Positions 8,349-20,157 of a stretch of 20,168 bases of DNA are shown here, in pieces. The notes beneath the pieces were generated by a model. It had not been told where the DNA came from, did not search any database, and saw only the letters and a list, made by a program, of their open reading frames with translations. The position numbers and the translations under genes are program-made. Within the stretch, counting starts at the first letter, position 1. Each line of letters begins with the position of its first letter. Source of the DNA: Methanotrichaceae archaeon (GTDB lineage: Archaea; Halobacteriota; Methanosarcinia; Methanotrichales; Methanotrichaceae); NCBI GenBank assembly GCA_013329455.1, contig DUKF01000001.1, positions 1 through 20,168 on the forward strand, in the 5' to 3' direction.

Positions 8349-8624
8349 TTATCTGAAGTACCTTCTGGTGGTGTACTTGAAGTAGACCACAAGCCCCAGG
8401 GTCAACGTCGTCAGAGAGACGAAGTTGGCCACTATCAAAGGCGAGTTTTGCAGATGCAGGCCGTAAACCATCCAGAGAAAGACCCCGAGCCCCAACTGAA
8501 CCATCATGAAAAGGCTCACGTCGTCCACTGACTTCGTTTGTACCATCTTCACAAGCTGCGGCACAAAGCCGAACATCGTCAGAGTCGCAGCTCCATAACC
8601 TATGATTTCCCAGTCCATTGACAT
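8349..8624 (-). CDS. SemiSWEET-type (PQ-loop) small transporter
   Basis: 91 residues from ATG 8624, three membrane helices, the usual length for prokaryotic SemiSWEETs, which dimerise to move small sugars or similar solutes. The PQ motif appears as MFGFVPQLVKMVQTKSVDDVS, followed by LGLGVFLWMVYGL and an Asn in the third helix (LIVANFVSL), all family hallmarks. The frame continues upstream to 8672, but the added Arg/Ser-rich residues do not fit the family. A TATA-like sequence at 8675-8684 would start the mRNA near 8655, so the shorter start is preferred. The substrate is unknown. Confidence 0.85.
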   Translation of the reverse strand: MSMDWEIIGYGAATLTMFGFVPQLVKMVQTKSVDDVSLFMMVQLGLGVFLWMVYGLHLQNSPLIVANFVSLTTLTLGLVVYFKYTTRRYFR

Positions 8625-8674
8625 CGATCTCTTTGAAATTGAACCTGCCGACCGTCGCCGGCTCTTCACCACCC

Positions 8675-8684
8675 GGATATAACC
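8675..8684 (-). promoter_or_regulatory. Candidate TATA box for the SemiSWEET-PsiE unit
   Basis: Read leftward the sequence is GGTTATATCC, bracketed by CCGG on both sides and by CCACC/GGTGG arms further out. It lies about 50 bp before ATG 8624. The symmetrical GC-rich arms around the AT core could let a regulator cover the promoter. Confidence 0.4.
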
Positions 8685-8801
8685 GGTGGCTCGTTAATCC
8701 GGTTTTCGGTGCTCTTCTAACCGTGCCACCAGGGCCGGAAAGCTTATTATCAAGATATTTGATCTTTTGTCAAGAAATGTTGATTTAGATTTGGAGGGTC
8801 C

Positions 8802-9806
8802 ATGAATAATTACCAGAGAATGATTTCCGTGCTCCTCTGTTTCTTCCTTCTCTATTTATCGGGATGCGGCGCAGAGATGGTGACGATCGTCGATTACACC
8901 GAACGATCGGTGGACGTTCCCCTCCCTGTGGAGAGGATAGTTTCACTATCGTCCCCAGCCTCGGAGATCGTCTGCGCCTTGGGTGCTGGCGATTTGATAG
9001 TAGGCCGAGGCTCAAGCTCCGTCTTTCCTCCCCGCCTTGAAGAGGTGCCAGTCGTCGGCAAAAGCTCCCGCACCTCCGACATGGAGCTGATCTTAGAGCT
9101 TCGTCCAGATCTCGTGATCGCCGACACCATGCTCTCCGAAGACGACCGCAAGACGATGGAGTCCGTCGGAATCCCGGTCCTTGAGGAGAGCTTCGTCGAT
9201 CCTTCGAGAGTGACCGAGGTCGTCAGAAACCTCGGCCTTGTTCTTGGAGAGGAGGATCGAGCTGATGATCTGGCGGGTTTCATTGAGGGGTACCAGGACG
9301 TCATCGGGGATAGGACGGCTGGCCTCGGCGAGGATGATATGCCCCTCGTCTTTCTGGAACGGGAGTGGACTTACCATACAACATCCAAAGGGACCTCGTC
9401 TCACAACCTCGTGGTCATGGCGGGGGGCAGGAACATCGCCGCCGAGGAGTCGGTCGAGTATCCCACCGTCAGCCCCGAGTGGGTGGTGGAAAATGATCCC
9501 GACGTAATCGTCCGCCTCCTCTGGGCGACGACCGGAGAATTCTTCCCCGAGGACAAACTGAAGAAGACCAGAGACGAGATCGTCTCAAGGCCCGAGCTTG
9601 CGGGCGTCAGGGCCGTCAAGGACGGACGGGTTCACGTCCTCAGCAGCAAGACGAACAGCGGGATGCGTTCGATAGTGGGGGAGCTTTACCTCGCCAAGTG
9701 GTTCCACCCCAATCTCTTCGAAGACATCGACCCGGTGAAAGTGCATGAAGAACTGATCCGCGAGTTTTACGGCCTCGATCTGAACGAGGTCTACGCCTAT
9801 CCGTGA
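8802..9806 (+). CDS. ABC-type substrate-binding lipoprotein, TroA/BtuF-like
   Basis: 334 residues. Residues 8-19 are a hydrophobic export signal ending in the lipobox LSGC, with Cys22 the likely lipid anchor. The mature protein has the class III binding-protein layout: VERIVSLSSPASEIVCALGAGDLIVG, then ELRPDLVIAD, a long linking helix, and a second lobe (EWVVENDPDVIVRLLW, ending GELYLAKWFHP). The closest functional classes bind vitamin B12/cobinamide, haem or Fe(III) chelates. A ribosome binding site (GGAGGG) precedes ATG 8802. It is more distant from the two other binding proteins of the window than they are from each other. No permease or ATPase gene is beside it, so its transporter is encoded elsewhere. 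Confidence 0.88.
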   Translation: MNNYQRMISVLLCFFLLYLSGCGAEMVTIVDYTERSVDVPLPVERIVSLSSPASEIVCALGAGDLIVGRGSSSVFPPRLEEVPVVGKSSRTSDMELILELRPDLVIADTMLSEDDRKTMESVGIPVLEESFVDPSRVTEVVRNLGLVLGEEDRADDLAGFIEGYQDVIGDRTAGLGEDDMPLVFLEREWTYHTTSKGTSSHNLVVMAGGRNIAAEESVEYPTVSPEWVVENDPDVIVRLLWATTGEFFPEDKLKKTRDEIVSRPELAGVRAVKDGRVHVLSSKTNSGMRSIVGELYLAKWFHPNLFEDIDPVKVHEELIREFYGLDLNEVYAYP

Positions 9807-9940
9807 TCGACGGACGCGTCCGTTCATCCCGACTGGACGGGCGTGCTCTCCCCTTTTCACGTTCCAGACCAATTTTTGTCCCGCCACAGAAAGCAGCTCA
9901 TTTCAGGAGGCGGCTTCGACCTCCTAAGAATTACACAATA

Positions 9941-9967
9941 TTGACCGAAATTCTTATTAATTAATAA
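9941..9967 (+). promoter_or_regulatory. Promoter/operator element of the binding-protein gene
   Basis: TTGACCGAAA followed by CTTATTAATTAATAA. It includes the perfect 14-bp palindrome TTATTAATTAATAA at 9954-9967. Bases 9941-9965 match 19971-19995 with only two differences. ACCGAAA plus the AT-rich block fits an archaeal BRE/TATA core promoter about 30 bp before a start site near 9985; the palindrome could also be an operator. Confidence 0.55.
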
Positions 9968-10013
9968 ACAATTTCAGTATTTACATGAGACGAGCCAGAG
10001 GGAGGCACCTATT

Positions 10014-11075
10014 TTGAATAAAATTCCATTCATTTCGCTTTTAACCATGTGCTTATTCCTGACGTTGGGGATGGCGGACGCCGCCGATTATCCCCTGACC
10101 GTCACAGACTCTGCGGGAAGATCTGTGATGATCGAAGCCCCGATCGAGAAGATCGTGGTCTTGAACTCCGATGCGGCCGAGGCGGTCAGCATCCTCGGCG
10201 AGACCGACAAGATCGTGGGAACGACGGACAGCGTTCCCAAGTACAAGGCCTACTACTTCTCAGACGTCATGGGCGGCTGGGAGATCGTGGGGACCTGGAA
10301 GGAGTTCAACTACGAAAAAATAGCGGACCTGGCCAGGGATGATGACGGAGAGATAGGACCCGGGATGCTGGTGATCTGCTACGCCAACAAGGCTGCAGAG
10401 GTGGAGGAGAACCTGGGACCTTTCGAGAAGATCGATATCGTGGGCCTCGACCTCTATAACGCCGAGACCCTGGAAGAGGAGATGACCGCCCTCGGAGAGA
10501 TCCTGGACCGAGAATCTGATGCCGAAGATTACAACGACTGGGTCAGCGAGAAGAAGGCCGACGTTGCAGAGGCGGTCTCAGGGCAAGAGAGGCCGAGGGT
10601 TTACGTCGAGGGAGGGTCGATCGGCGAGCTTGGGTCTCTCTGGACCTACGGCCGAGAATCTTCCCTGAACGATATGATCTATCTCGCCGGTGGCGAGAAC
10701 GTGATCGATGTGAATGAAGCAAACCCCAAGGTGGACTGGGAGAGCGTCCTCGCCCAGATGCCCGAGGTGATCATCAAGGTGCCCGCGGCCACAAACCAGC
10801 TCGGCTGGAGCAACGCCACCGAGATGGAAGTTCTCATCGAGGATATCCAGAGCCGCCCTGGCGCTGACGCCGTCCCTGCCACGGAGGATGGCAGGGTCTA
10901 CGTGATCTTCAGGGACACGACCCTTGGGATGGGTGCTGTCGTCGGCCTCACCTACTGGGCCGAGATGATCCATCCAGAGGCCGATCTCGATCCTGAGGAG
11001 GTCTACCGGGAGTACCTTGGGATGAGGGGGCTTGACTACCCTGAGGAGAACTTCTTCGTCCGCCCGGAGATGTGA
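10014..11075 (+). CDS. Exported ABC-type substrate-binding protein, paralogue A
   Basis: 353 residues with a cleavable signal (hydrophobic ISLLTMCLFLTLG, cut likely after MADA) and no lipobox or C-terminal anchor. The start is TTG, chosen because a strong GAGGGAGG site ends about nine bases upstream and no better codon exists. The fold is of the TroA/BtuF type: VTDSAGRSVMIEAPIEKIV, LNSDAAEAVSILG, WTYGRESSLNDMIYLAGGENVI and a C-terminal lobe. It is a clear paralogue of the gene at 15001-16137, sharing VVGTWKEF[ND]YEKI, HPE[AV]DLDPE and the ending FVRPE[MI]. Proteins of this class in methanogens are annotated for iron or cobalamin uptake. Position next to CobN suggests a metallated tetrapyrrole, corrinoid or metal chelate; inferred only. 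Confidence 0.85.
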   Translation: MNKIPFISLLTMCLFLTLGMADAADYPLTVTDSAGRSVMIEAPIEKIVVLNSDAAEAVSILGETDKIVGTTDSVPKYKAYYFSDVMGGWEIVGTWKEFNYEKIADLARDDDGEIGPGMLVICYANKAAEVEENLGPFEKIDIVGLDLYNAETLEEEMTALGEILDRESDAEDYNDWVSEKKADVAEAVSGQERPRVYVEGGSIGELGSLWTYGRESSLNDMIYLAGGENVIDVNEANPKVDWESVLAQMPEVIIKVPAATNQLGWSNATEMEVLIEDIQSRPGADAVPATEDGRVYVIFRDTTLGMGAVVGLTYWAEMIHPEADLDPEEVYREYLGMRGLDYPEENFFVRPEM

Positions 11076-11120
11076 AAAAAGCTGGGCAGGACTATCGAGA
11101 TAGAATCTGGAAATTGGTTG

Positions 11121-11149
11121 TGCGTTGCAGTTCCTGGGGCTGCAGCGCA
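11121..11149. terminator. Hairpin between convergent genes
   Basis: TGCGTTGCAG and CTGCAGCGCA form a 10-bp stem (one G-U pair in RNA) around a 9-nt loop. It lies in the 191-bp gap between the ends of two convergent genes, where a bidirectional transcription stop would be useful. There is no long T run, so the assignment is tentative. Confidence 0.4.
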
Positions 11150-11266
11150 ACACGTCTTTCGACATCATTCCAACTTACCCTGCCACCAAATGCCTTATTT
11201 TTCCTTTCAACTTCCAGGATCGGTCCGTTCTCTCTTCAGTTCCACCGAACCCGTTTGGATCTGAGG

Positions 11267-14200
11267 TCATATCTCCAGGACCTTCGACATTTTCTCCCGC
11301 CAGGCCTTGACGTCCTCGGCTGTGAGAACGTCGATCGACCCGCCCTGGAAGCTCCCATTGGTCTCGCCCAGCCTCTCCTCGATCCAGCCCTCCATTTCGA
11401 GGTAGGCGGCCTTCAGGTCCTCGATCACATCAGGGTCGGCCTCCCAGAGGCCGCGCTGGTTCGCCTCCAAGAGCCTTCGCCCGATCTCCTCCATCGCCCA
11501 GGGGTTGTTTTCCTCGAAAAAGTGCCTCATTTCCTCGTCGAGGACGAAGGTCTTGGCGATGTCGTCGAAGACCCAGTCGTCGACCTCTCGGGTCGTCGCC
11601 TCCCATCCGTAGACCCGGCCGACACGCTTCGATATGTCGCCTGCGCCCTTGTAGCCGTGCCGTTTCATCCCCTCGACCCACTTGGGGTTGAGAAGCTTCG
11701 TTCTGACGACCCGGCGAACCTCGTCGGCGAGGCTTCTTATGGCCACTTTGTCCCGGTCTCTCGTGTCGCCGTAGTAGGCTGAAACGTCCCTTCCCGAGAC
11801 CTCTCTTGCGGCCACGGTGAGGCCTCCGTGGGTTCCGAAGTAGCAGCAGCACCCGAAGAGATCGTACTCGTCGGTGGCGGTCTTGTTGAAGGTCATCTCG
11901 ACGCTTTTGAGTTGCGAGACGAGCCTCTCGTGGGACTCCTCGCCGAAGACGCCCTTGCCGTAGGCGTAGCCGTTCCAGTAGATGAAGACGTCCGAGAGGT
12001 CCTTCTCCTTCTCCCAGGCCGAGGCGTAGACCGCCAATTTCACGCCGTTCCCGTAGGTTCCAGGACGGCTAGCAAAGATCCTGGGTCCCTCGCCCTCTTC
12101 AAGGACGTGCTTTCTCACGTAGTTATCCTCGGGGCTCTCATCGAGAGATGCGACCTCTCTTATCGCCTCGTCGAGAAGCTCGATGCAGTTGTAAAAGCAG
12201 TCTCTTGTGATCCCGCTCACCCTGACGGTAAGATCGATCCTCGGCCTATTCAGCTCCTCGATCGGGATCACCTTGTAGCCTTTGACCGATCCTCCCTTCC
12301 AGATCGGCTCGACGCCGAGAAGGTGCATCATCGAGGAGAGCTGCTCGCCGTCGGCCCACATGATGTCGCTGGCCATCCAGAACATTGCGACATTCTCGGG
12401 GATATTGCCGTGCTCCTCCCTGTACTTCTCGATGACCCCTTCGGCCAACTTCCGGCCAACCCGCCAGGCCCCCTCCGTCGGGACCCGGGAGGGGTCGAGG
12501 GAGTAGAAGTTTCTCCCGGTGGGGAGTACCTCGGGCTTTCCTCTGGTTATGAGTCCCGAGGGGCCGGGCTCGATGTAACCACCGTCAAAGCCGCGGAAGA
12601 GTGCCTCCATCTCCGTTGAGGCCTCGATTCTTCCCGAGATGTCGAGGACCCGGTCCCTCATGGCGAGGATCGAGCCCTCGTCCCGATTCCGAAGCCGGTT
12701 CCCAAGGACACTCTCCGCGGCGAGGGTCCCGTCCTCGCCTTCGATGAATTCCGCTATCAGCCTTTTCGAGAGGGCGTCGACCTCCATCAGGTCATCGACC
12801 CCGGCCTCTGAGAGGTCGATACCCAGAAGGTTCGAGACGAACTTTCTCATCTCCGAGTCGTAGCGGAGGATCGAAGCGATCAGCTCGACCTTCTTTTCTT
12901 CTTTTGGCCTCTCATCGAAGATGTGCATCCCGTCCGGGATCTGGGTGTTGTAGATCTCCGAGATCTTCTCGTGGGCGAGGTCGACGACCTCATCGAAAGA
13001 GACACCTCGATCGAGGAGGGCCTCTAGCTTCATCTCCTCGGAGAGGTTTGTCTCCCTCAAAAGGTCGAGGATCAGGTGCTCGAGGGCGTGGGCTCTCGCC
13101 TTTTCTGAGACTCTCGTCCTCTTGTACTCGGAGATCTTCTCCTCGAGATCCTTCAGCTCGCCGTAGAGGCCGCTTTCGGTCATCACCGTCTGCATGTGGT
13201 CGACGAGGACGGCGTAGCTCCTCCTCTTTGCGATCGTCCCCTCGGGAGGGTTGTCGGAGTTGTAGATGTAGAGGTGGGGAAGGCTCCCGATGGCGATGTC
13301 CGGATAGCAGGCGTCGGAGAGAGCGACCGATTTACCCGGCAGAAACTCGAGGTTCCCGTGGGTTCCGACGTGGACGACGACGTCGGCTCCGAAATCCCTC
13401 TCGAGGTAGCTGTAGGTGGCGAGGTACTGGTGGGGCGGCGGAACCTCGGGGTCGTGGAGGATCTTGCAGACTTGTCCGTCGCACCTGGCCCCTGCGCAAC
13501 CTCTCTTCGGCTGGACGCAGACGACGGCGTTCTCGTAATTGACGCCCGTGATAACGATCTTTCCGTCGTGGACCATGGCTGCGGGAACGCCGTCCTTCTC
13601 CTCACCGGGAGGCTCGCCCCAGGCTTCGCAGACCTTTTGCCTTGCCTCTATCGGAAGAGTATCAAACCACCGCTCGTAATCCTCCCGACTCAATAGGGCG
13701 AGAGCCCCACCCTTGCTCACGATCTCCTCGACGGAGGTCCACCTGAACTCCGAGATCGCCTTCCGGTCGAGGATCGTCTTCACAAGATCTGCCCCGTTTT
13801 CAGGGGGGCTCGTGATCGAATAGCCAGCGTCCTTCATCCGGTTCATTATCCTCGCCAGGCTCTCGAGGGAGTCGAGGTTGGCGGCAGATCCCACCGAGGC
13901 CTCCACCGAGGCGCAGGGGTTGTTGTGGAGGATGAATGCGACTCTCCTCTCAGAGGCCGTTTTCTCCTTGAGGCGAATCCAGTTTCCGATCCTTGCAACG
14001 ATCCGCTCCACCCTCTTATCGAGGGCCCGGTGTCTCTCGAACTCGGCCCCGTCGAGACGATCGGTCGTCGCAACCCCGGCGATGATCGGCTCTATTGCCC
14101 CCTCGAACTCGGGCATGGCGACGCTCCAGCCCACCTCGCTGCTCTTCATCCCGTGAATGTCGGCCCGCCACTCCTCTTCGGTGGCGTGATAGACGGTGAG

Positions 14201-14977
14201 AGGATGGAAGACCGGAACGTTCAGCCTTTTCAAGACCTCGCGGGAGGCGTCGACGTTCCCCGCGTGGAATATCGACTGCAAGTTGATCACAGCGTCTACT
14301 CGCCCAGAAAAGAACTCCTCAGTCACCTCACCGCTCGATTTCGCTGAGAGGTCCCGGTCGCCCATCCCGAAGCAGAAGGCGGGGATCACGTCGAACTCCT
14401 TTTCAAGCTCACGGACGAAGGCGTCGACCATTTCGAGGTCGCCGTTCGCCCAGTAGGTCCGGAAGAATAGGAGGCCGACAGTGTGGTCGTGGCGGGGACT
14501 TCTCCAGGCGAGGTACTCCTCGATCGACTCGAAGGCCTCCGGGGCCTCGGGGTGGTAGATCCCCTGCCAGAGCCTCTCCTCGGGAAGATCGTACCTGAAG
14601 TCGAGTTCCAGGAGTTCATTTCCCAAGTACTTCAACATGTTCTCCGCGTTTGCAAGGCCGCCGTAGACGATGTACTGGTTCGTAGTCGCCACGATCTCAA
14701 GAGAGACGTTCGATATCGACCAGTGTGAGGGGTCCCGCCCGAAGGAGACTACCGGGACCGACCCATCAAGGCTCTCGGCGATATCATCCCAGGGGCCCTC
14801 ATGGGAGGGGTGGAGGAGGACGACGTCTGCCCCTTCGAGAAACTCGCGGCATTGAGCGGCCACGTCTTGACCCTCAAGATCTGAGGTGGTGGCCGCCTTC
14901 AGATCTATTCCCAGGTTCTTTGCGGCCTCCAGGAGGAGGGCGACGTCGCTGGCCCAGGTTATCGATCTAACTTTCAT
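11267..14977 (-). CDS. cobN: CobN-like metal chelatase large subunit
   Basis: 1236 residues, full length for the CobN/ChlH/BchH family, the tetrapyrrole-binding subunit of ATP-dependent class I chelatases. The signature HVGTHGNLEFLPGK lies at about residues 535-548, followed by LSDACYPDIAIGSLPHLYIYNSDNPPEG and AKRRSYAVLVDHM. Near 487-505 a Cys motif C-x6-C-x3-C-x4-C (within CVQPKRGCAGARCDGQVC) fits archaeal CobN-type proteins. Three Cys in a row stand at 1043-1045 (GCCCYFGTHGG). ATG 14977 has an excellent GGAGGT site. The paralogue-B binding-protein gene ends 23 bp upstream on the same strand, so the two form an operon. Cobaltochelatase for B12 is the default call. Because anaerobes also use CbiK/CbiX chelatases and some CobN relatives (HmuS) are linked to removing iron from haem, another tetrapyrrole or the reverse reaction is possible. 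Confidence 0.9.
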   Translation of the reverse strand: MKVRSITWASDVALLLEAAKNLGIDLKAATTSDLEGQDVAAQCREFLEGADVVLLHPSHEGPWDDIAESLDGSVPVVSFGRDPSHWSISNVSLEIVATTNQYIVYGGLANAENMLKYLGNELLELDFRYDLPEERLWQGIYHPEAPEAFESIEEYLAWRSPRHDHTVGLLFFRTYWANGDLEMVDAFVRELEKEFDVIPAFCFGMGDRDLSAKSSGEVTEEFFSGRVDAVINLQSIFHAGNVDASREVLKRLNVPVFHPLTVYHATEEEWRADIHGMKSSEVGWSVAMPEFEGAIEPIIAGVATTDRLDGAEFERHRALDKRVERIVARIGNWIRLKEKTASERRVAFILHNNPCASVEASVGSAANLDSLESLARIMNRMKDAGYSITSPPENGADLVKTILDRKAISEFRWTSVEEIVSKGGALALLSREDYERWFDTLPIEARQKVCEAWGEPPGEEKDGVPAAMVHDGKIVITGVNYENAVVCVQPKRGCAGARCDGQVCKILHDPEVPPPHQYLATYSYLERDFGADVVVHVGTHGNLEFLPGKSVALSDACYPDIAIGSLPHLYIYNSDNPPEGTIAKRRSYAVLVDHMQTVMTESGLYGELKDLEEKISEYKRTRVSEKARAHALEHLILDLLRETNLSEEMKLEALLDRGVSFDEVVDLAHEKISEIYNTQIPDGMHIFDERPKEEKKVELIASILRYDSEMRKFVSNLLGIDLSEAGVDDLMEVDALSKRLIAEFIEGEDGTLAAESVLGNRLRNRDEGSILAMRDRVLDISGRIEASTEMEALFRGFDGGYIEPGPSGLITRGKPEVLPTGRNFYSLDPSRVPTEGAWRVGRKLAEGVIEKYREEHGNIPENVAMFWMASDIMWADGEQLSSMMHLLGVEPIWKGGSVKGYKVIPIEELNRPRIDLTVRVSGITRDCFYNCIELLDEAIREVASLDESPEDNYVRKHVLEEGEGPRIFASRPGTYGNGVKLAVYASAWEKEKDLSDVFIYWNGYAYGKGVFGEESHERLVSQLKSVEMTFNKTATDEYDLFGCCCYFGTHGGLTVAAREVSGRDVSAYYGDTRDRDKVAIRSLADEVRRVVRTKLLNPKWVEGMKRHGYKGAGDISKRVGRVYGWEATTREVDDWVFDDIAKTFVLDEEMRHFFEENNPWAMEEIGRRLLEANQRGLWEADPDVIEDLKAAYLEMEGWIEERLGETNGSFQGGSIDVLTAEDVKAWREKMSKVLEI

Positions 14978-15000
14978 AGCTCAACCTCCTTGAAAGCCGG

Positions 15001-16137
15001 TTAGATCTCCGGGCGGACGAAGACGCGTTCGCCTGGGTATTCGAAGTCCAAACGGGCCAGGTACTCCTGGTGGACCATTTCGGGGTCCAGGTCTACTTCG
15101 GGATGGAAGATTCTGGACCAGTAGGTGAGACCGACGACGCTGTCGAGGCCAAAGTGCATCCCCCAGTAGCAGACGTAGACCTTTCCGTTCTGGACCGCAG
15201 AGATCTCCTCTGCGCCTGGCCTTGTCATGATCTCGCTTCTCTCGGCCTCAAGCTCAGAGACGTCGCTCCACCCCAGATCTGAGATGGACTTGATTTTGAG
15301 GATAACGTCAGGGTTCTCGGATACTACCCACTCCCAGTCGACCTTTGGGTACTTCACGAGGTCGCTTCCGATGTTCTCACCTCCGGCGATTCTGCATAGG
15401 TCGTTTAAAGCTGAACCGTCCCCATAAGAGCTGAGGGATCCGATGCCGCCCTTGGAGCTCGACTCGATGTAGACCTTGGGGGTAGGCAGCCCCTCGACGG
15501 CGGACTTGACCTCATCCTCCTTTCCATCGCACCATTCGCAGTAGGCCTCGGCCTCTTCCACCCGTCCGAGCAGGATCCCGAGCTTTCTGATCTCGTCCTT
15601 CAAGGTCTCCTGCTTGTATAGGTCTAGCCCGACGGCAGTTATGTTTTCGAAGGGGGCTAGGCCCCTCTCGACGGAATATATGCCGTAGGGAAGGTCAGGG
15701 TAGGTGTAGCCGATGACGATTATATTGGGAACGATCTGGTCGGAGTCGCCCATGGCCAGAGACCCGATCTTCTCGTAGTCAAACTCCTTCCAGGTGCCTA
15801 CTACCTCACAGTCCAGAAGATTCGGGAAGAGAGCGGGCTTTTTCGAGATGCTGTCGGTCACCCCGACGATATCCTCCCCTGCGCCGAGCATCTCGACCGC
15901 TTCAGCGGCATCGGTGTTCAGAACGATGATCCTCGCTACCGACATCTCAACCGTCACCGTCCTCCCTGCCGAGTCGTTTATAGTCCTAGGATACCCGGTC
16001 TCCTCACAGATCGAGGTCGAGGACGCTGACGCAGAGCCAGACCCGGAATCTGAAGCGGTTGCAGACGCAAACGCGGACGTCAGCGATGATAGTAGCAATA
16101 GAAACGCCAAAAGCGCACAGAACGACTTTCCCTTCAT
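15001..16137 (-). CDS. Exported ABC-type substrate-binding protein, paralogue B
   Basis: 378 residues from ATG 16137, chosen over an upstream in-frame ATG (16167) because AGAGGT lies seven bases before it and the protein then begins with a normal signal sequence (SFCALLAFLLLLSSLTSAFA). A Ser/Ala/Gly-rich linker (about 20-45) follows, then the TroA/BtuF-like fold beginning TINDSAGRTVTVE. Its paralogue at 10014 shares motifs along the whole length. It carries more Cys (ICEETG, DCEVVGTW, YCEWCDG, DLCRIAGG, VYVCYWG) than the paralogue. No lipobox or anchor is visible. It is the first gene of an operon with the CobN-like gene, the strongest sign that its ligand is connected to the chelatase. No permease or ATPase gene lies nearby. 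Confidence 0.87.
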   Translation of the reverse strand: MKGKSFCALLAFLLLLSSLTSAFASATASDSGSGSASASSTSICEETGYPRTINDSAGRTVTVEMSVARIIVLNTDAAEAVEMLGAGEDIVGVTDSISKKPALFPNLLDCEVVGTWKEFDYEKIGSLAMGDSDQIVPNIIVIGYTYPDLPYGIYSVERGLAPFENITAVGLDLYKQETLKDEIRKLGILLGRVEEAEAYCEWCDGKEDEVKSAVEGLPTPKVYIESSSKGGIGSLSSYGDGSALNDLCRIAGGENIGSDLVKYPKVDWEWVVSENPDVILKIKSISDLGWSDVSELEAERSEIMTRPGAEEISAVQNGKVYVCYWGMHFGLDSVVGLTYWSRIFHPEVDLDPEMVHQEYLARLDFEYPGERVFVRPEI

Positions 16138-16420
16138 ATTAATACCTCTTTTAAGCCGATAGTTCATCTGATGGATAATAACTATTGTGGTTAAGATGTT
16201 ATTAATTAAGTAAAATTGATTTCATGATAAATGGGATATTAGTACGATAATTCGTCGGATATACCCAAAGTAGAATTTATATTTTCTATCTATTCCAGCA
16301 TCTATTGACATGTTAGTCATTAGGTTCCACATTTATGATATATAGTATTATGAATTTACTAAACACTTAGTAATACGAAAAAAGAGTTTATATTATATAA
16401 TATGCTAACCATCTCGAAGA
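16138..16420. promoter_or_regulatory. AT-rich divergent promoter region
   Basis: 283 bp, far richer in A and T than its surroundings, drive the binding-protein/CobN operon leftward and the membrane-protein gene rightward. TTAATTAATAA read leftward at 16199-16209 matches the core of the element before the paralogue at 10014. TTACTAA-ACAC-TTAGTAA at 16356-16373 is an exact inverted repeat just upstream of a rightward TATA block, TTTATATTATATAA at 16388-16400. That TATA block places transcription start close to ATG 16421, so the rightward mRNA is probably leaderless or nearly so. Confidence 0.5.
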
Positions 16421-17419
16421 ATGTCCCTTCTAGAGTACTTGATCAGGACGACGATGCTCATGACGGCGGGGGTGATCGTCGCGAACATCGCCATGGAGGC
16501 GAACCTCCTCGCTGGCCTGGCGCGACCGATCGGCCTCCTATCCCGCTCATCGAACCTGCCCGAGTGCTGCACGGTCTCGATCTTCGCCTGCATGATCAGC
16601 CCTGCCGCCGGAAAGTCCGCCCTATCGGAGTTCTACAGGAGGGGCGAGGTGGGAAAGACCGAAACGCTCCTTTCGATCCTCATCAGCACCTTTCCCGTCG
16701 TCCTGGGGGAGTCGCTCTTCAGGGTACAGGCCCCGATAGCCGTCGTCCTTCTAGGGCCGGTCGTTGGCGGGACATACGTCCTCCTCAACCTCTTTTCCAG
16801 CTTCATCCAGAGCTTTTCGGCTCTCCTCTATTCGAGGCTCAGGATGACGCCGACTGCTTCCACCGGGACCAGCAATTCCGCACCTGCCACCACGATCAAT
16901 ACTACCAACAAGACCAGCAGGGCGGAGGTGGTTGATGAAGACAAAGAGAAGGGGAAGAGCTCCAGGCTCGATCGAGAGACGGCGATGAAGGGTTTTCGAA
17001 AATCGGTTCCAGCTCTCAGAAAGACGATACCGACTGTGGTGGCGACGATGATCCTGATGGACCTGTTGATGAGGCACGGGGCGATCGAGAGCCTCTGCGT
17101 CTTCTTCGACCCGGCCCTTCGGGCTCTAGGTCTTCCGGGGGAGTGCATCGCGCCCCTGGCGATGCAGTTCGTTCACTTCTCGGCGGGGTATGCCTCGGTG
17201 GCGGCTCTGATGGAGGCGGAGGCCATCACCTCCAAGCAGGTGGTGATCACCCTCCTCGTCGGGAGCATGGGGGTGATCACTATGATCTACGCCAAGTACA
17301 GCCTATCGATGTACCTTGCTTTGTTCGGCAAGTTCGGGGCCAGGCTCGCTCTCGTCTCCTACCTCTTCAGCATGACGGCAAAGGTCGTGACGATCTTTCT
17401 GGCGCTGATGCTCCTTTAG
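16421..17419 (+). CDS. Gate/nucleoside-recognition-type membrane protein
   Basis: 332 residues in two hydrophobic halves (about 1-140 and 195-332), joined by a polar Ser/Thr/Asn then Lys/Glu-rich linker (about 143-185). Each half has several membrane helices. Segments such as CTVSIFACMISPAAGKSALSEFYRRGEV followed by a helix, and the matching HFSAGYASVAALMEAEAITSKQVV in the second half, look like the duplicated Gate (nucleoside recognition) domains also found in FeoB-type transporters and sporulation membrane proteins. No GTPase domain is present. No Shine-Dalgarno is seen; the TATA block 20-30 bp upstream suggests a leaderless mRNA. Being encoded between CobN and ChlI-ChlD suggests transport of a metal or tetrapyrrole. 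Family assignment is moderate and substrate unknown. Confidence 0.65.
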   Translation: MSLLEYLIRTTMLMTAGVIVANIAMEANLLAGLARPIGLLSRSSNLPECCTVSIFACMISPAAGKSALSEFYRRGEVGKTETLLSILISTFPVVLGESLFRVQAPIAVVLLGPVVGGTYVLLNLFSSFIQSFSALLYSRLRMTPTASTGTSNSAPATTINTTNKTSRAEVVDEDKEKGKSSRLDRETAMKGFRKSVPALRKTIPTVVATMILMDLLMRHGAIESLCVFFDPALRALGLPGECIAPLAMQFVHFSAGYASVAALMEAEAITSKQVVITLLVGSMGVITMIYAKYSLSMYLALFGKFGARLALVSYLFSMTAKVVTIFLALMLL

Positions 17420-17764
17420 CCATAACAGATGCCAGCTTATCTTGGAAGGCGTGGAGCTGAAGCTTCAGTTTTCATCGAGCATGCTTTACAAAGTGACCTG
17501 GTTTTCTTCCTTATTCAGGCAACAACACCGCATCTTCAACGAATGGGGGAGCAACGCGGTGTTACAGTCCTTTTGTCGTAACGATATCCGATATATCGAC
17601 GATACCGACAAACTAAATCCTGGAATTTCCATATTTCGTATGCTAGTATCATTATATCTTGCTAATTTAAAGTGAAATTTGACCAATTTTTATGCTTCAA
17701 TTAACACTAGATATAGGTTTATATAACTAAGTATGATTTACCGTTAAGCGTAAGGAGAGATCAG
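17420..17764. promoter_or_regulatory. Intergenic region with chelatase-gene promoter
   Basis: 345 bp without a convincing gene. Near the left end a palindrome CTGAAGCTTCAG followed by TTTT (17457-17472) may end the upstream transcript. AACACCGC (17524-17531) and GCGGTGTT (17556-17563) are inverted across 24 bp. TTGACCAA at 17679-17686 recalls the promoter elements at 9941 and 19971. TTTATATAA at 17718-17726 is a good TATA box, and AAGGAG ends seven bases before the ATG of the next gene. Confidence 0.55.
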
Positions 17765-19810
17765 ATGCACCACCTCAAAAGAAGAACCATTCCGTTCACG
17801 TCCATTGTTGGTCAGGAAGATATGAAATTCGCCCTCATCCTCAACGCCGTAAACCCCAGGATCGGAGGCGTTCTGATAAGGGGTGATAAAGGCACAGCGA
17901 AATCGACAGCTGTGCGCGCCCTGGCCGATCTTTTGGATGATATCCCCGTGGTAGAAGGCTGCCCCTTCAACTGCAATCCCCACAATCCAGAAGAGATGTG
18001 CGACCTGTGTTTTGAACGCAGCCAGATGGACCAAGTAGAGGCAACCACGCGCAGAACTCCCGTGATCGATCTGCCGCTCGGGGCAACCGAGGACAGGGTT
18101 GTAGGATCTTTGAACGTGGAAAGGGCTATCAAGGAGGGCATTAAAGCCCTGGAGCCCGGGATTCTGGCTGCCGCCAACCGGGGAATCCTCTACATTGACG
18201 AGGTAAACCTCCTCGACGACCACGTAGCAGACGTCCTACTGGACTCGGCCGCCATGGGTGTAAACATAGTAGAACGCGAGGGCATCTCCGTGGCCCATCC
18301 TTCAAAGTTCATCCTCGTTGGCACCATGAACCCCGAGGAGGGCGAGATCAGGCCCCAGCTTCTGGACAGATTTGGGCTGCAGGTGAATGTAGAGGGCATT
18401 GAAGACGTCGATCTGAGGATGGAGATTGCCAAGAGGGCGGAGAAATTTGAGGCCGATCCTGAGGACTTCGCTCAGGAGTTTGAGTCAAACCAGGAAGATC
18501 TGAGAAGGCAGATCTTCGAGGCCAAGAAGATCCTGAGAAGAGTAACCATGGATGATGATCTCCTAAGAACTACGGCCTCGACCTGCGTCGACCTGGGAGT
18601 CAAAACGCATCGAGCGGAGATTGTAATCACCAGGACGGCCAAGACCATAGCTTCCTTCGAAGGAAGGACGGATGTAAATTCTGAAGACGTAAGAAAGGCC
18701 ATGGAGCTGGCTCTGGCCCACAGGATGAGAAGCAGGCCCTTTGAACCACCCACGCTGAACAAAGAGCGGCTGGAAGAGTCGATGGACAAGCATCAGGAAC
18801 CTCAGAAGCAGCAACCTCAGAAGCAGCAACCTCAGAAGCAGCAACCCCAGAATCCGGAGAGGGGTGAGGAGAAACACCAGGAGAGACCCCAGGAACAGGA
18901 TTCCAATGGCTCTGAGGAACCTTTTCAGGGGCAGGAAAATATCTTCGAGATAGGCGAGCCCATCGACGTGCGGCAGATTAACATTCTTCGCAAAAGGGAC
19001 AGGACGCCGCGCCGGAAGGCAAGCGGCAGGAGAATGAACACTCTTGCAAAGTCTGGATCGGGAAGGTACCTGCGCCACAGGATGCCTCAAGAGGGAAAGG
19101 ACATAGCCATCGATGCCACCATCAGGGCAGCCGCTCCATATCAGCGCTTTAGAGAAGGAAGTAACGTCATCAAAGTGCACAGCCAGGACATCCGGGAGAA
19201 GGAGCGGGTCAGGAAGACCTCGGTCGTGGTCATGTTCGTGGTGGACGCCAGCGGCTCCATGGGCGCTGTGAGGAGAATGGAGAGCGCCAAGGGCGCGGTC
19301 CTCTCCATGCTCATGGATTCCTACCAAAAGAGAGACAAGATCGGCATGGTGGCCTTTAAGGGAAAGGACGCAGAGCTGCTCCTCTCCCACTGCTCCAGCG
19401 TGGACCAAGCTCTGAGCAGGCTCAGCGAGCTTCCAACTGGCGGAAAGACTCCCTTATCTGCGGGTCTTTCCAAAGGATTGCAACTCCTGCAAAGTGAGAT
19501 GAGGAAAGACAAAGAGGCTAAACAGATGATGGTGCTGATATCTGATGGTAGGGCCAATGTCTCCCTTGGAGGAAGCATTAGAGATGAGATTAGAGAGATC
19601 TCAGAAAGGACAAAACAAGCTGGAGTGCATACTATCGTGATCGACACTGAGGTGGTGGAGTCGTCGTTCATGGATATGAGGCTGGGGTACTGCAGAGATG
19701 TAGCAGAGGCGGCTGGTGGAAGATACTATCCAATATCCTGCCTCAGCCCTGAGGCGCTGTGCAGCATAGTGGAAGGCGAGCAGCAGACACTCTTCGAGAA
19801 GAACGCCTGA
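17765..19810 (+). CDS. Fused ChlI-ChlD type chelatase ATPase/vWA subunit
   Basis: 681 residues. The N-terminal AAA+ domain (about 1-330) has Walker [10 protein letters not shown] (40-48), a Cys motif C-x3-C-x8-C-x2-C (66-82) typical of many BchI/ChlI proteins, Walker [12 protein letters not shown] (141-151), and sensor region [22 protein letters not shown] Gln/Pro/Lys-rich linker (about 342-390) with a short tandem repeat leads to a C-terminal von Willebrand A domain with MIDAS DASGSMG (494-500) and [11 protein letters not shown]. This supplies both the I (ATPase) and D (adaptor) parts of a class I chelatase, the partner needed by the CobN-like subunit encoded at 11267-14977. It has its own TATA box and strong ribosome binding site. 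Specificity for cobalt, magnesium or another reaction is set by the large subunit and cannot be read here. Confidence 0.93.
18800..18849 (+). repeat. 15-bp tandem repeat in the linker of the ChlI-ChlD gene
   Basis: CCTCAGAAGCAGCAA occurs three times in a row (starting 18800, 18815, 18830) followed by a partial fourth. It encodes repeats of Pro-Gln-Lys-Gln-Gln in the flexible linker. It stays in frame, so copy-number change would only alter linker length. Confidence 0.9.
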
Positions 19811-20109
19811 GCCCAGAATATTTCGGAGAATTTCAAAATTTCGGGGTCGTAGGTGTCGATTATCGAAGAACTGCGATATTTATATAATCCACGATCCCGC
19901 TTCGATGCCTACCGATTTGCAATGACAGAATTCAACGAGGAATTCTGAACAGGATGCAATTAGTCTTATTTTGACCAAAATCCTTATTAATTAATCAGTT
20001 GATTGGCGCTAAAATGTGTAATTGGTATGAATTAATTTCAATTTGTAATAATTAAGGCGTGTAAATTAATTCTAAATAGCGTTAAAATCTTACTGGTGAG
20101 GTGGTATAT
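19811..20109. promoter_or_regulatory. Long upstream region of the right-edge start
   Basis: 299 bp after the chelatase gene with no convincing gene. It holds a TATA-like TTTATATAAT at 19879-19888, the exact inverted repeat CAGAATTC-aacgag-GAATTCTG at 19926-19947, and TTGACCAAAA plus CTTATTAATTAAT at 19971-19995, which matches the element before 10014 at 23 of 25 positions. The distance from that element to ATG 20110 implies a leader of roughly 90 nt. Confidence 0.45.
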
Positions 20110-20157
20110 ATGGAGACAAAAAAGTCGTGGATGTTGGTTCTGTCCCTGTTATTTTGA
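20110..20157 (+). pseudogene. Truncated signal-peptide-like start at the window edge
   Basis: A GGTGAGGTGG ribosome binding site precedes ATG 20110, which encodes METKKSWMLVLSLLF and then TGA. A Lys-Lys start followed by a hydrophobic run is how an exported protein begins. With the shared promoter element upstream, a further binding-protein paralogue may have been intended. The stop after 15 codons suggests a frameshift or a decayed gene, though the window ends too soon to see what follows; chance is possible. Confidence 0.35.

Follow-up and report, generated by a model that had tools for sequence, protein, structure and literature searches.

A CobN-like chelatase of a cysteine-marked clade encoded beside uptake-type genes in a Methanotrichaceae archaeon

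The 20,168-nucleotide stretch analysed here (the window) makes up the entire contig C269 in the genome of a Methanotrichaceae archaeon (2.17 Mb, 273 contigs, 81.5% complete), and encodes a CobN-like class I chelatase large subunit in the vicinity of exported binding proteins. This chelatase belonged to a distinct clade that was marked by conserved cysteines and accompanied by conserved uptake genes. The gene order, the separate clade, the cysteine signature and the distance from B12 genes were directly observed. We give roughly even chances to the reading that the locus carries the last steps of an import route, in which an imported metal complex would be altered by the CobN-like protein together with a ChlI-ChlD protein.

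The gene for the CobN-like protein (1236 aa; 11267..14977, minus strand) was located immediately downstream of that for exported binding protein 3 (15001..16167, minus strand), which ended 23 bp before the CobN start codon. A Gate-domain membrane protein (332 aa; 16421..17419, plus strand) and a ChlI-ChlD fusion with AAA+ and vWA domains (681 aa; 17765..19810, plus strand) were encoded divergently from this pair. The fusion passed TIGR02442, the model for the ATPase partner of class I chelatases (785.6 bits, cut-off 779.45), and contained the MIDAS-type motif DASGS, in agreement with the original prediction, made from the DNA letters of this locus, that it was complete. It is presumably the partner of the CobN-like protein. 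The same prediction of two paralogous exported binding proteins, one of them 23 bp from the CobN-like gene, was also confirmed, as binding protein 3 and binding protein 2 (10014..11075, plus strand; 63.1 bits) both matched PF01497 and shared 46% identity over 339 aa in blastp.

The CobN-like protein exceeded the cut-off of PF02514 (1258.7 bits), the superfamily of CobN, ChlH and HmuS, with a full-length fold, and scored 1737.4 bits against NCBIfam NF004646 (PRK05989.2-4; 'cobaltochelatase subunit CobN'), for which the cut-off is 1468. From the fetched loci, 107 different superfamily proteins with a length of 1100 residues or more were aligned, 71 from the window's group and 36 from outside it, together with C-terminal segments of four PDB chains. 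The tree was built from residues 784-1204 after removal of the columns of cysteine motif 2 and was rooted at its midpoint. Thinning at 80% identity reduced the 71 to 15, which with the complete set of 36 others and the four PDB segments gave 55 rows. The 15 rows of the window's group formed a clade of their own (support 100/100), on which a quicker tree agreed. The neighbouring clade (99/98) contained the verified CobN structures (7c6o, 9uk9), plasmid and haloarchaeal CobN and the methanogen B paralogues. The two clades were joined at 100/99, with ChlH, the C paralogues, the D paralogues and HmuS outside. The window protein was thus placed beside the verified B12 cobaltochelatases rather than among them, an outcome that does not refute the original prediction, and grouped with neither HmuS nor ChlH/BchH. 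The kinship to HmuS raised in that prediction was not borne out, since HmuS grouped with giant D paralogues at 100/99. The own place of HmuS is unsure because of its long branch (1.49); L096 was the other long branch in the tree.

The cysteine signature of the clade, a new element that was absent from the original prediction, consisted of two motifs and one isolated residue. The consensus of motif 1 was QPKRGCAGxRCDGxVCK, at which the other proteins were five residues shorter or had a three-residue insertion without Cys. Motif 2 was GCC(C)YFG, whereas the others have DxDD, LDH or similar. In the window protein, Cys494-x4-Cys499-x4-Cys504 within QPKRGCAGARCDGQVCK (13466..13498, minus strand) followed strand 484-488 and preceded helix 516-529 of the structural model, and Cys1043-Cys1044-Cys1045 (11843..11851, minus strand) was aligned to L1207-D1208-H1209 of HmuS. 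Cys355 (13913..13915, minus strand) faced a gap in all the 36 other superfamily members. All 71 clade members possessed Cys355, Cys499, Cys504, Cys1043 and Cys1044; Cys494 was found in 70 (Gly in L021) and Cys1045 in 59. No cysteine was present at positions 355, 494, 499, 504, 1043 and 1044 in any of the 36 others, and position 1044 was Asp in 34 of them as well as in 7c6o and 9uk9. Only Cys355, Cys504, Cys1043 and Cys1044 are independent of the group definition, because the membership pattern contains Cys499 and, up to one Gly, Cys494. None of the signature columns was used in the tree.

Conserved residues of the superfamily were retained around this signature. His540 (HmuS H538), Glu544 (ChlH E625) and Glu579 (ChlH E660) were present in 71 of 71 clade members, and equivalents of the two glutamates, which belong to the active site of ChlH, in 36 of 36 others. 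The residues corresponding to D1208/H1209/E1212 of HmuS were C/C/G, with CCCYFG in place of LDHxxE, so that both the tree and the motif disfavoured HmuS kinship. The available text of PMC12583661 provided this metal-facing motif and its residue numbers, which we transferred through our alignment; it also names a Met-79/His-254 haem site and an MRI segment, and the alignment covered the C-terminal segment of HmuS. The Cys494/499/504 loop may occupy the place of HmuS Loop I, over the active site.

Motif 1 was conserved in all the 120 homologues listed out of 1380 found in the database, and the strict form of motif 2 in 118 of the 120, the other two having CCC with an altered flank. Of 392 genomes sampled across the phylum, 80 contained the exact DNA pattern for QPKRGCAG and none its reversed control. 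Clade members also occurred in eight bacterial loci, from Desulfovibrio, Desulfocurvus, Humidesulfovibrio, a Desulfobacterales bin, two 'Proteobacteria' bins and Romboutsia. The signature was mentioned in no title or beginning of an abstract that we found, a scope that mostly leaves out subscription papers and the 9fpc paper on the corrin and metal sites of CobN.

Two observations concern the wider family. Loci L109-L115 encoded 15 giant CobN-like paralogues above 1400 aa (1425-2284 aa, some clipped by the ends of the stretches), several of them in tandem. Several had a signal-like N-terminus and all 15 a hydrophobic C-terminal stretch with a basic tail, features by which these proteins look surface-anchored; in the tree they were found with HmuS. 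In a Methanophagales bin, a CobN of the window's clade was split into two ORFs of 530 and 723 aa (L047:10001-13761).

The gene neighbourhood was compared among the 59 named loci found with the window CobN, or 60 including the window. Twenty-seven of the 60 were well flanked, meaning 4 kb or more of sequence to one side of CobN and 3 kb or more to the other, and the remaining 33 were left out. Neighbours were counted by tblastn within 6 kb of CobN in these 21 archaeal and 6 bacterial loci. A binding protein was encoded near 24 of the 27 CobN genes, a ChlI-ChlD protein near 20 and a FecCD permease near 18. The archaeal loci accounted for 18 binding proteins, 14 ChlI-ChlD, 12 Gate, 12 FecCD, 5 ABC-2, 3 NifH-like and 2 NifDK-like occurrences. 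Binding protein, ChlI-ChlD, FecCD and TonB receptor genes were each found in 6 of 6 bacterial loci, ABC-2 genes in 5 and Gate genes in none. As the neighbours recurred in relatives, the grouping of genes in the locus goes beyond chance; the neighbourhood conservation proposed as a check by the original prediction was thus observed, bacteria included. In five bacterial loci (L039-L043) the order on a single strand was binding protein, FecCD, ATPase, TonB receptor, CobN and ChlI-ChlD, where the ChlD-type genes of L039, L040 and L042 were taken from an ORF-based neighbourhood count that is weaker in GC-rich records. The order in L037, from a Desulfovibrio bin, was FecCD, ATPase, TonB receptor, CobN, ChlI-ChlD and binding protein, followed by a CbiC-like gene, and most of the parts were present in different orders in L034 and L038, which have short flanks. 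Judged by gene order in L039-L043 and L037, a complete import route finishes with the chelatase in bacteria, and the chelatase appears to stand at the end of such a route. Together with the separate clade, the conserved neighbourhood supported the proposal of the original prediction that the locus is a unit of uptake and chelatase genes and not just a B12 gene.

CbiD is a marker of the early-insertion route of B12 synthesis. Contig C215 of the source genome contained cbiL, cbiF, cbiG, cbiH, cbiD and cbiE in one cluster, all above the NCBIfam cut-offs, and cbiC- and cbiT-like genes below theirs. A CbiX-family protein was encoded on contig C145, about 1.4 kb from an Oxidored_nitro match that is probably of the CfbD type judging from its place. 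The CbiX-family match of 110 residues hit no NCBIfam model at E 1e-20, so CbiX and CfbA were not distinguished; CfbA, itself of the CbiX family, is described in the available text of PMC11301274 as having higher activity with Co than with Ni. Given the early-route cbi genes, the CbiX-family protein and the Co activity of CfbA, cobalt insertion can be covered without CobN. The lack of any other cobalt chelatase in the genome, which would have told against the original prediction, was hence not what we found. When eight cbi proteins of the source genome were used as tblastn queries, cbi-type genes were detected near only 1 of the 27 well-flanked loci, with the positive control L094 recovered. 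No genetic link to late-route B12 genes was found, although genes exclusive to that route were not searched for. The window protein is probably not a B12 cobaltochelatase.

In the mechanism that we propose, the exported binding proteins would serve the uptake of a metal complex, which is most likely a metallated tetrapyrrole, in concert with a FecCD permease and ATPase encoded elsewhere in the genome or in relatives, and with a TonB receptor in bacteria. Once in the cytosol, the cargo would have its metal changed by the CobN-like subunit, with the ChlI-ChlD protein as motor, and we take removal or exchange to be likelier than insertion. Cys494/499/504 and Cys1043/1044 across the cavity may hold a metal or an Fe-S cluster where the relatives have Asp/His. 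The extra cysteines at the presumed metal site and the occurrence of relatives beside uptake genes make an imported metal compound likelier than the building of B12, and the cargo is presumably a tetrapyrrole. We also consider, quite tentatively, that the protein could represent a new type of class I chelatase, thiolate-lined and possibly Fe-S-bearing, that strips Ni, Co or Fe by ATP-driven action after dedicated uptake. If so, haem, F430, corrinoids and sedimentary porphyrins would be its tetrapyrrole sources, and it would contribute to the metal supply of methanogens, methane-oxidising archaea and sulfate reducers where sulfide makes metal scarce.

Several findings weighed against the proposed mechanism. 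No permease or ATPase gene was found in the window, the FecCD genes being on other contigs of the genome, and residues 495-498 inside the Cys loop were modelled with pLDDT below 50. The neighbouring clade in the tree contains true cobalt inserters. The CbiC-like gene at the operon end of L037 (L037:18247-18903; 189 bits, cut-off 294) points to corrins; like the neighbouring CobN clade it leads away from porphyrins, and as to substrate class it would favour corrinoids in this one bacterial operon. A His after the FRAP box is a hallmark of haem receptors; among 7 TonB receptors encoded next to CobN the box was found in 4, all of which lacked the His after it. The haem model was the best for the five TonB receptors beside CobN in L034 and L039-L042, with 193.6-207 bits that stayed below its cut-off of 317 (B12 model, 137-166 bits, cut-off 600). 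To our knowledge, the reactions driven by ChlI-ChlD or CobST are insertions. Metal removal by HmuS needs no ATP according to the available text of PMC12583661.

An alternative is corrinoid salvage, in which the importers would take up corrinoids, metal-free or incomplete forms among them, for the complex to insert cobalt into. The verified CobN in the neighbouring clade (joint support 100/99) and the CbiC-like gene of L037 are in line with it, as is the match of binding protein 1 to solved BtuF (up to 48.9 bits), even though the same protein also matched solved hemin-binding proteins (38.8 bits). Riboswitches were scanned at gathering scores in 12 loci (9 bacterial, 3 archaeal), and cobalamin riboswitches were detected only in L039, L040 and L043, 7-9 kb past CobN. 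Those of L043 preceded an NrdD-type gene and a TonB gene (L043:21757) for which the order of the models was reversed, with 195.3 bits for B12 and 145.1 for hemin. This B12-type TonB gene and the riboswitches of the three loci also speak for corrinoid salvage. Unlike these two genes, the CobN operon had no B12 riboswitch in it or just before it in the 9 bacterial loci within the sequence covered, and none was found in L037 at E 0.1 either. As cbi-type genes were near just one of the 27 loci and position 1044 is Cys as opposed to the Asp of 7c6o and 9uk9, we regard corrinoid salvage as rather unlikely.

We consider it distinctly unlikely that the importers take up a metallophore, that is, a metal chelate whose metal the complex would insert into a tetrapyrrole made by the cell. 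The binding proteins are of the FecB type, a metallophore could be exported through the products of the ABC-2-type genes, seen near CobN in 5 of 21 archaeal loci and in 5 of the 6 bacterial ones, and the partners of class I chelatases are known from insertion (available text of PMC7689651), yet no metallophore synthesis gene was recognised among the scanned proteins, in which no search aimed at one was made. A haem de-chelatase that works without ATP, as HmuS does, is improbable, given the grouping of HmuS with the giant D paralogues, the replacement of D1208/H1209/E1212 by C/C/G and the ChlI-ChlD gene near 20 of 27 loci. We consider least probable of all an ordinary late-route cobaltochelatase of B12 synthesis, as the NCBI family name implies. 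NF004646 was above its cut-off and the window protein was the only CobN found in the incompletely assembled genome, but the early-route genes with the CbiX-family protein, the separate clade and the lack of a cbi-type gene near 26 of 27 loci disfavoured this canonical role.

Binding protein 1, an exported protein of the FecB/BtuF type (8802..9806, plus strand; PF01497 117.7 bits; lipobox-like LSGC), was more distant from binding proteins 2 and 3 (28-30% identity in blastp). Within the fetched loci, the proteins closest to it (up to 59%) came from other Methanotrichaceae, in loci with B-type CobN (L102, L099, L100) or C-type CobN (L108). Haem, siderophore and B12 models all scored far below their cut-offs on the binding proteins and did not discriminate the substrate. 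Runs of three to five binding-protein genes occurred close to CobN in L035, L036, L049 and L050, and an EF-hand-like N-terminus was found in one binding protein of L049 and in one encoded before a FecCD gene in the source genome (L121). The Gate protein (PF07670, 39.7 bits) had been described as a two-Gate protein; the Gate domain itself was evident, with one stretch at E 0.001, and the second stretch appeared only at the relaxed E of 0.5. Its model (pLDDT 81.7) best matched the concentrative nucleoside transporter 5l26 (TM 0.49), and FeoB was not among the 50 of 278 matches listed, which lend no support to a FeoB-like iron channel. The metal or tetrapyrrole channel that the original prediction saw in the Gate protein is at most putative, given this best match and the presence of Gate genes near 12 of 21 archaeal and 0 of 6 bacterial loci.

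A promoter-like box, TTGACCGAAATTCTTATTAATTAATAA with the core TTATTAATTAA, was located 47-73 bp upstream of binding protein 2 (9941..9967, plus strand), and a second copy with 24 of 27 identical bases at 19971..19997 (plus strand). The core occurred at 9954, at 16199 (16199..16209, plus strand, in the divergent region between the binding protein 3-CobN pair and the Gate gene) and at 19984. These were its only copies in the 2.17 Mb assembly, in which the reversed control of the 11-mer core was found twice. In 1.6 Mb of loci (window included, duplicates dropped) there was one further copy, located in L049 68 bp upstream of a binding protein 61% identical to binding protein 3. A 22/27 match to the box lay in L011, 85-90 bp before a binding protein with 45% identity; these relatives of binding protein 3 belong to two other genera, a recurrence that we count in favour of the import reading. 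A 15-base version with two mismatches gave 16 matches against 12 for the control; since relaxed versions were not enriched, it is the exact core alone that stands out. There is some selection in the count, because the box had caught the eye in two intergenic stretches before it was counted. The box resembles an archaeal BRE/TATA element, so it may act as a core promoter and not as an operator. The inverted repeats seen within 60 bases numbered two pairs in 8500-11300, each of which overlapped a coding sequence, and none in 16100-17800. The window contained no RNA element at gathering scores and no tRNA. A short ORF with a secretion-signal-like start, METKKSWMLVLSLLF plus stop (20110..20157, plus strand), lay 11 bases from the contig end.

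Other neighbours were also seen in the collected loci. NifH-like or NifDK-like genes were present near cysteine-marked CobN in L004:496-6112, L013:6414-9784, L050:2045-5713 and L058:3-1700. The NifH-like proteins of L004 and L050 passed PRK13230 (cut-off 350) and that of L013 failed, and none of the seven scanned proteins passed the cut-offs for nifH, CfbC, BchL, NifDK or BchNB. One reading of these genes is a nitrogenase-like tetrapyrrole reductase. A Trichlorobacter lovleyi plasmid (L096:1-13069) is annotated with BzaF, a TonB receptor, DUF2162, MotA/TolQ, DUF2149 and a CobN-like gene, so that a CobN-like uptake operon adjoins corrinoid lower-ligand synthesis. A contig titled Candidatus Nitrosotalea (L055) carried a methanogen/ANME-type locus and is probably misbinned.

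The function of such proteins has been discussed before. In the available text of the 2025 HmuS paper (PMC12583661), CobN-annotated proteins, mainly of Methanobacteriota, are said to be of unclear function and not to be associated with other cob genes. Proteomics of M. barkeri led to the suggestion of iron recovery from haem by CobN-like 'BtuS' proteins (available text of PMC10846266). Ni chelation was suggested for CobN-related genes in 2011 (PMC3087415), a step since assigned to CfbA (PMC11301274), both according to the accessible parts of these papers. The locus makes the CobN question testable by offering a defined clade, a cysteine signature that the alignment puts at the active site, and bacterial operons in which receptor, binding protein, permease, ATPase and chelatase subunits occur together. 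If the import reading is right, the name 'cobaltochelatase CobN' is wrong for the entries of the cysteine-marked clade, and anaerobes possess one more way of taking metal from tetrapyrroles or of salvaging them.

Compared with known systems, NF004646 assigns B12 cobalt insertion by its family name, a role for which little support was found in the window protein. The protein differs from CobN (7c6o, 9uk9) in its three-Cys active-site loop and in CC(C) instead of an Asp motif, as well as in having ChlI-ChlD genes nearby and no late-route gene link found. It resembles the ChlH/BchH subunit of magnesium chelatase (4zhj) in fold, in the equivalents of Glu625 and Glu660 and in the ChlI-ChlD type of partner, and differs from it in its separate clade and its Cys signature. 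With the haem de-chelatase HmuS (9d26) it shares the fold, the histidine of HxGTHG and the tie to an uptake locus, whereas it belongs to another clade and the metal-facing D/H/E of HmuS are replaced.

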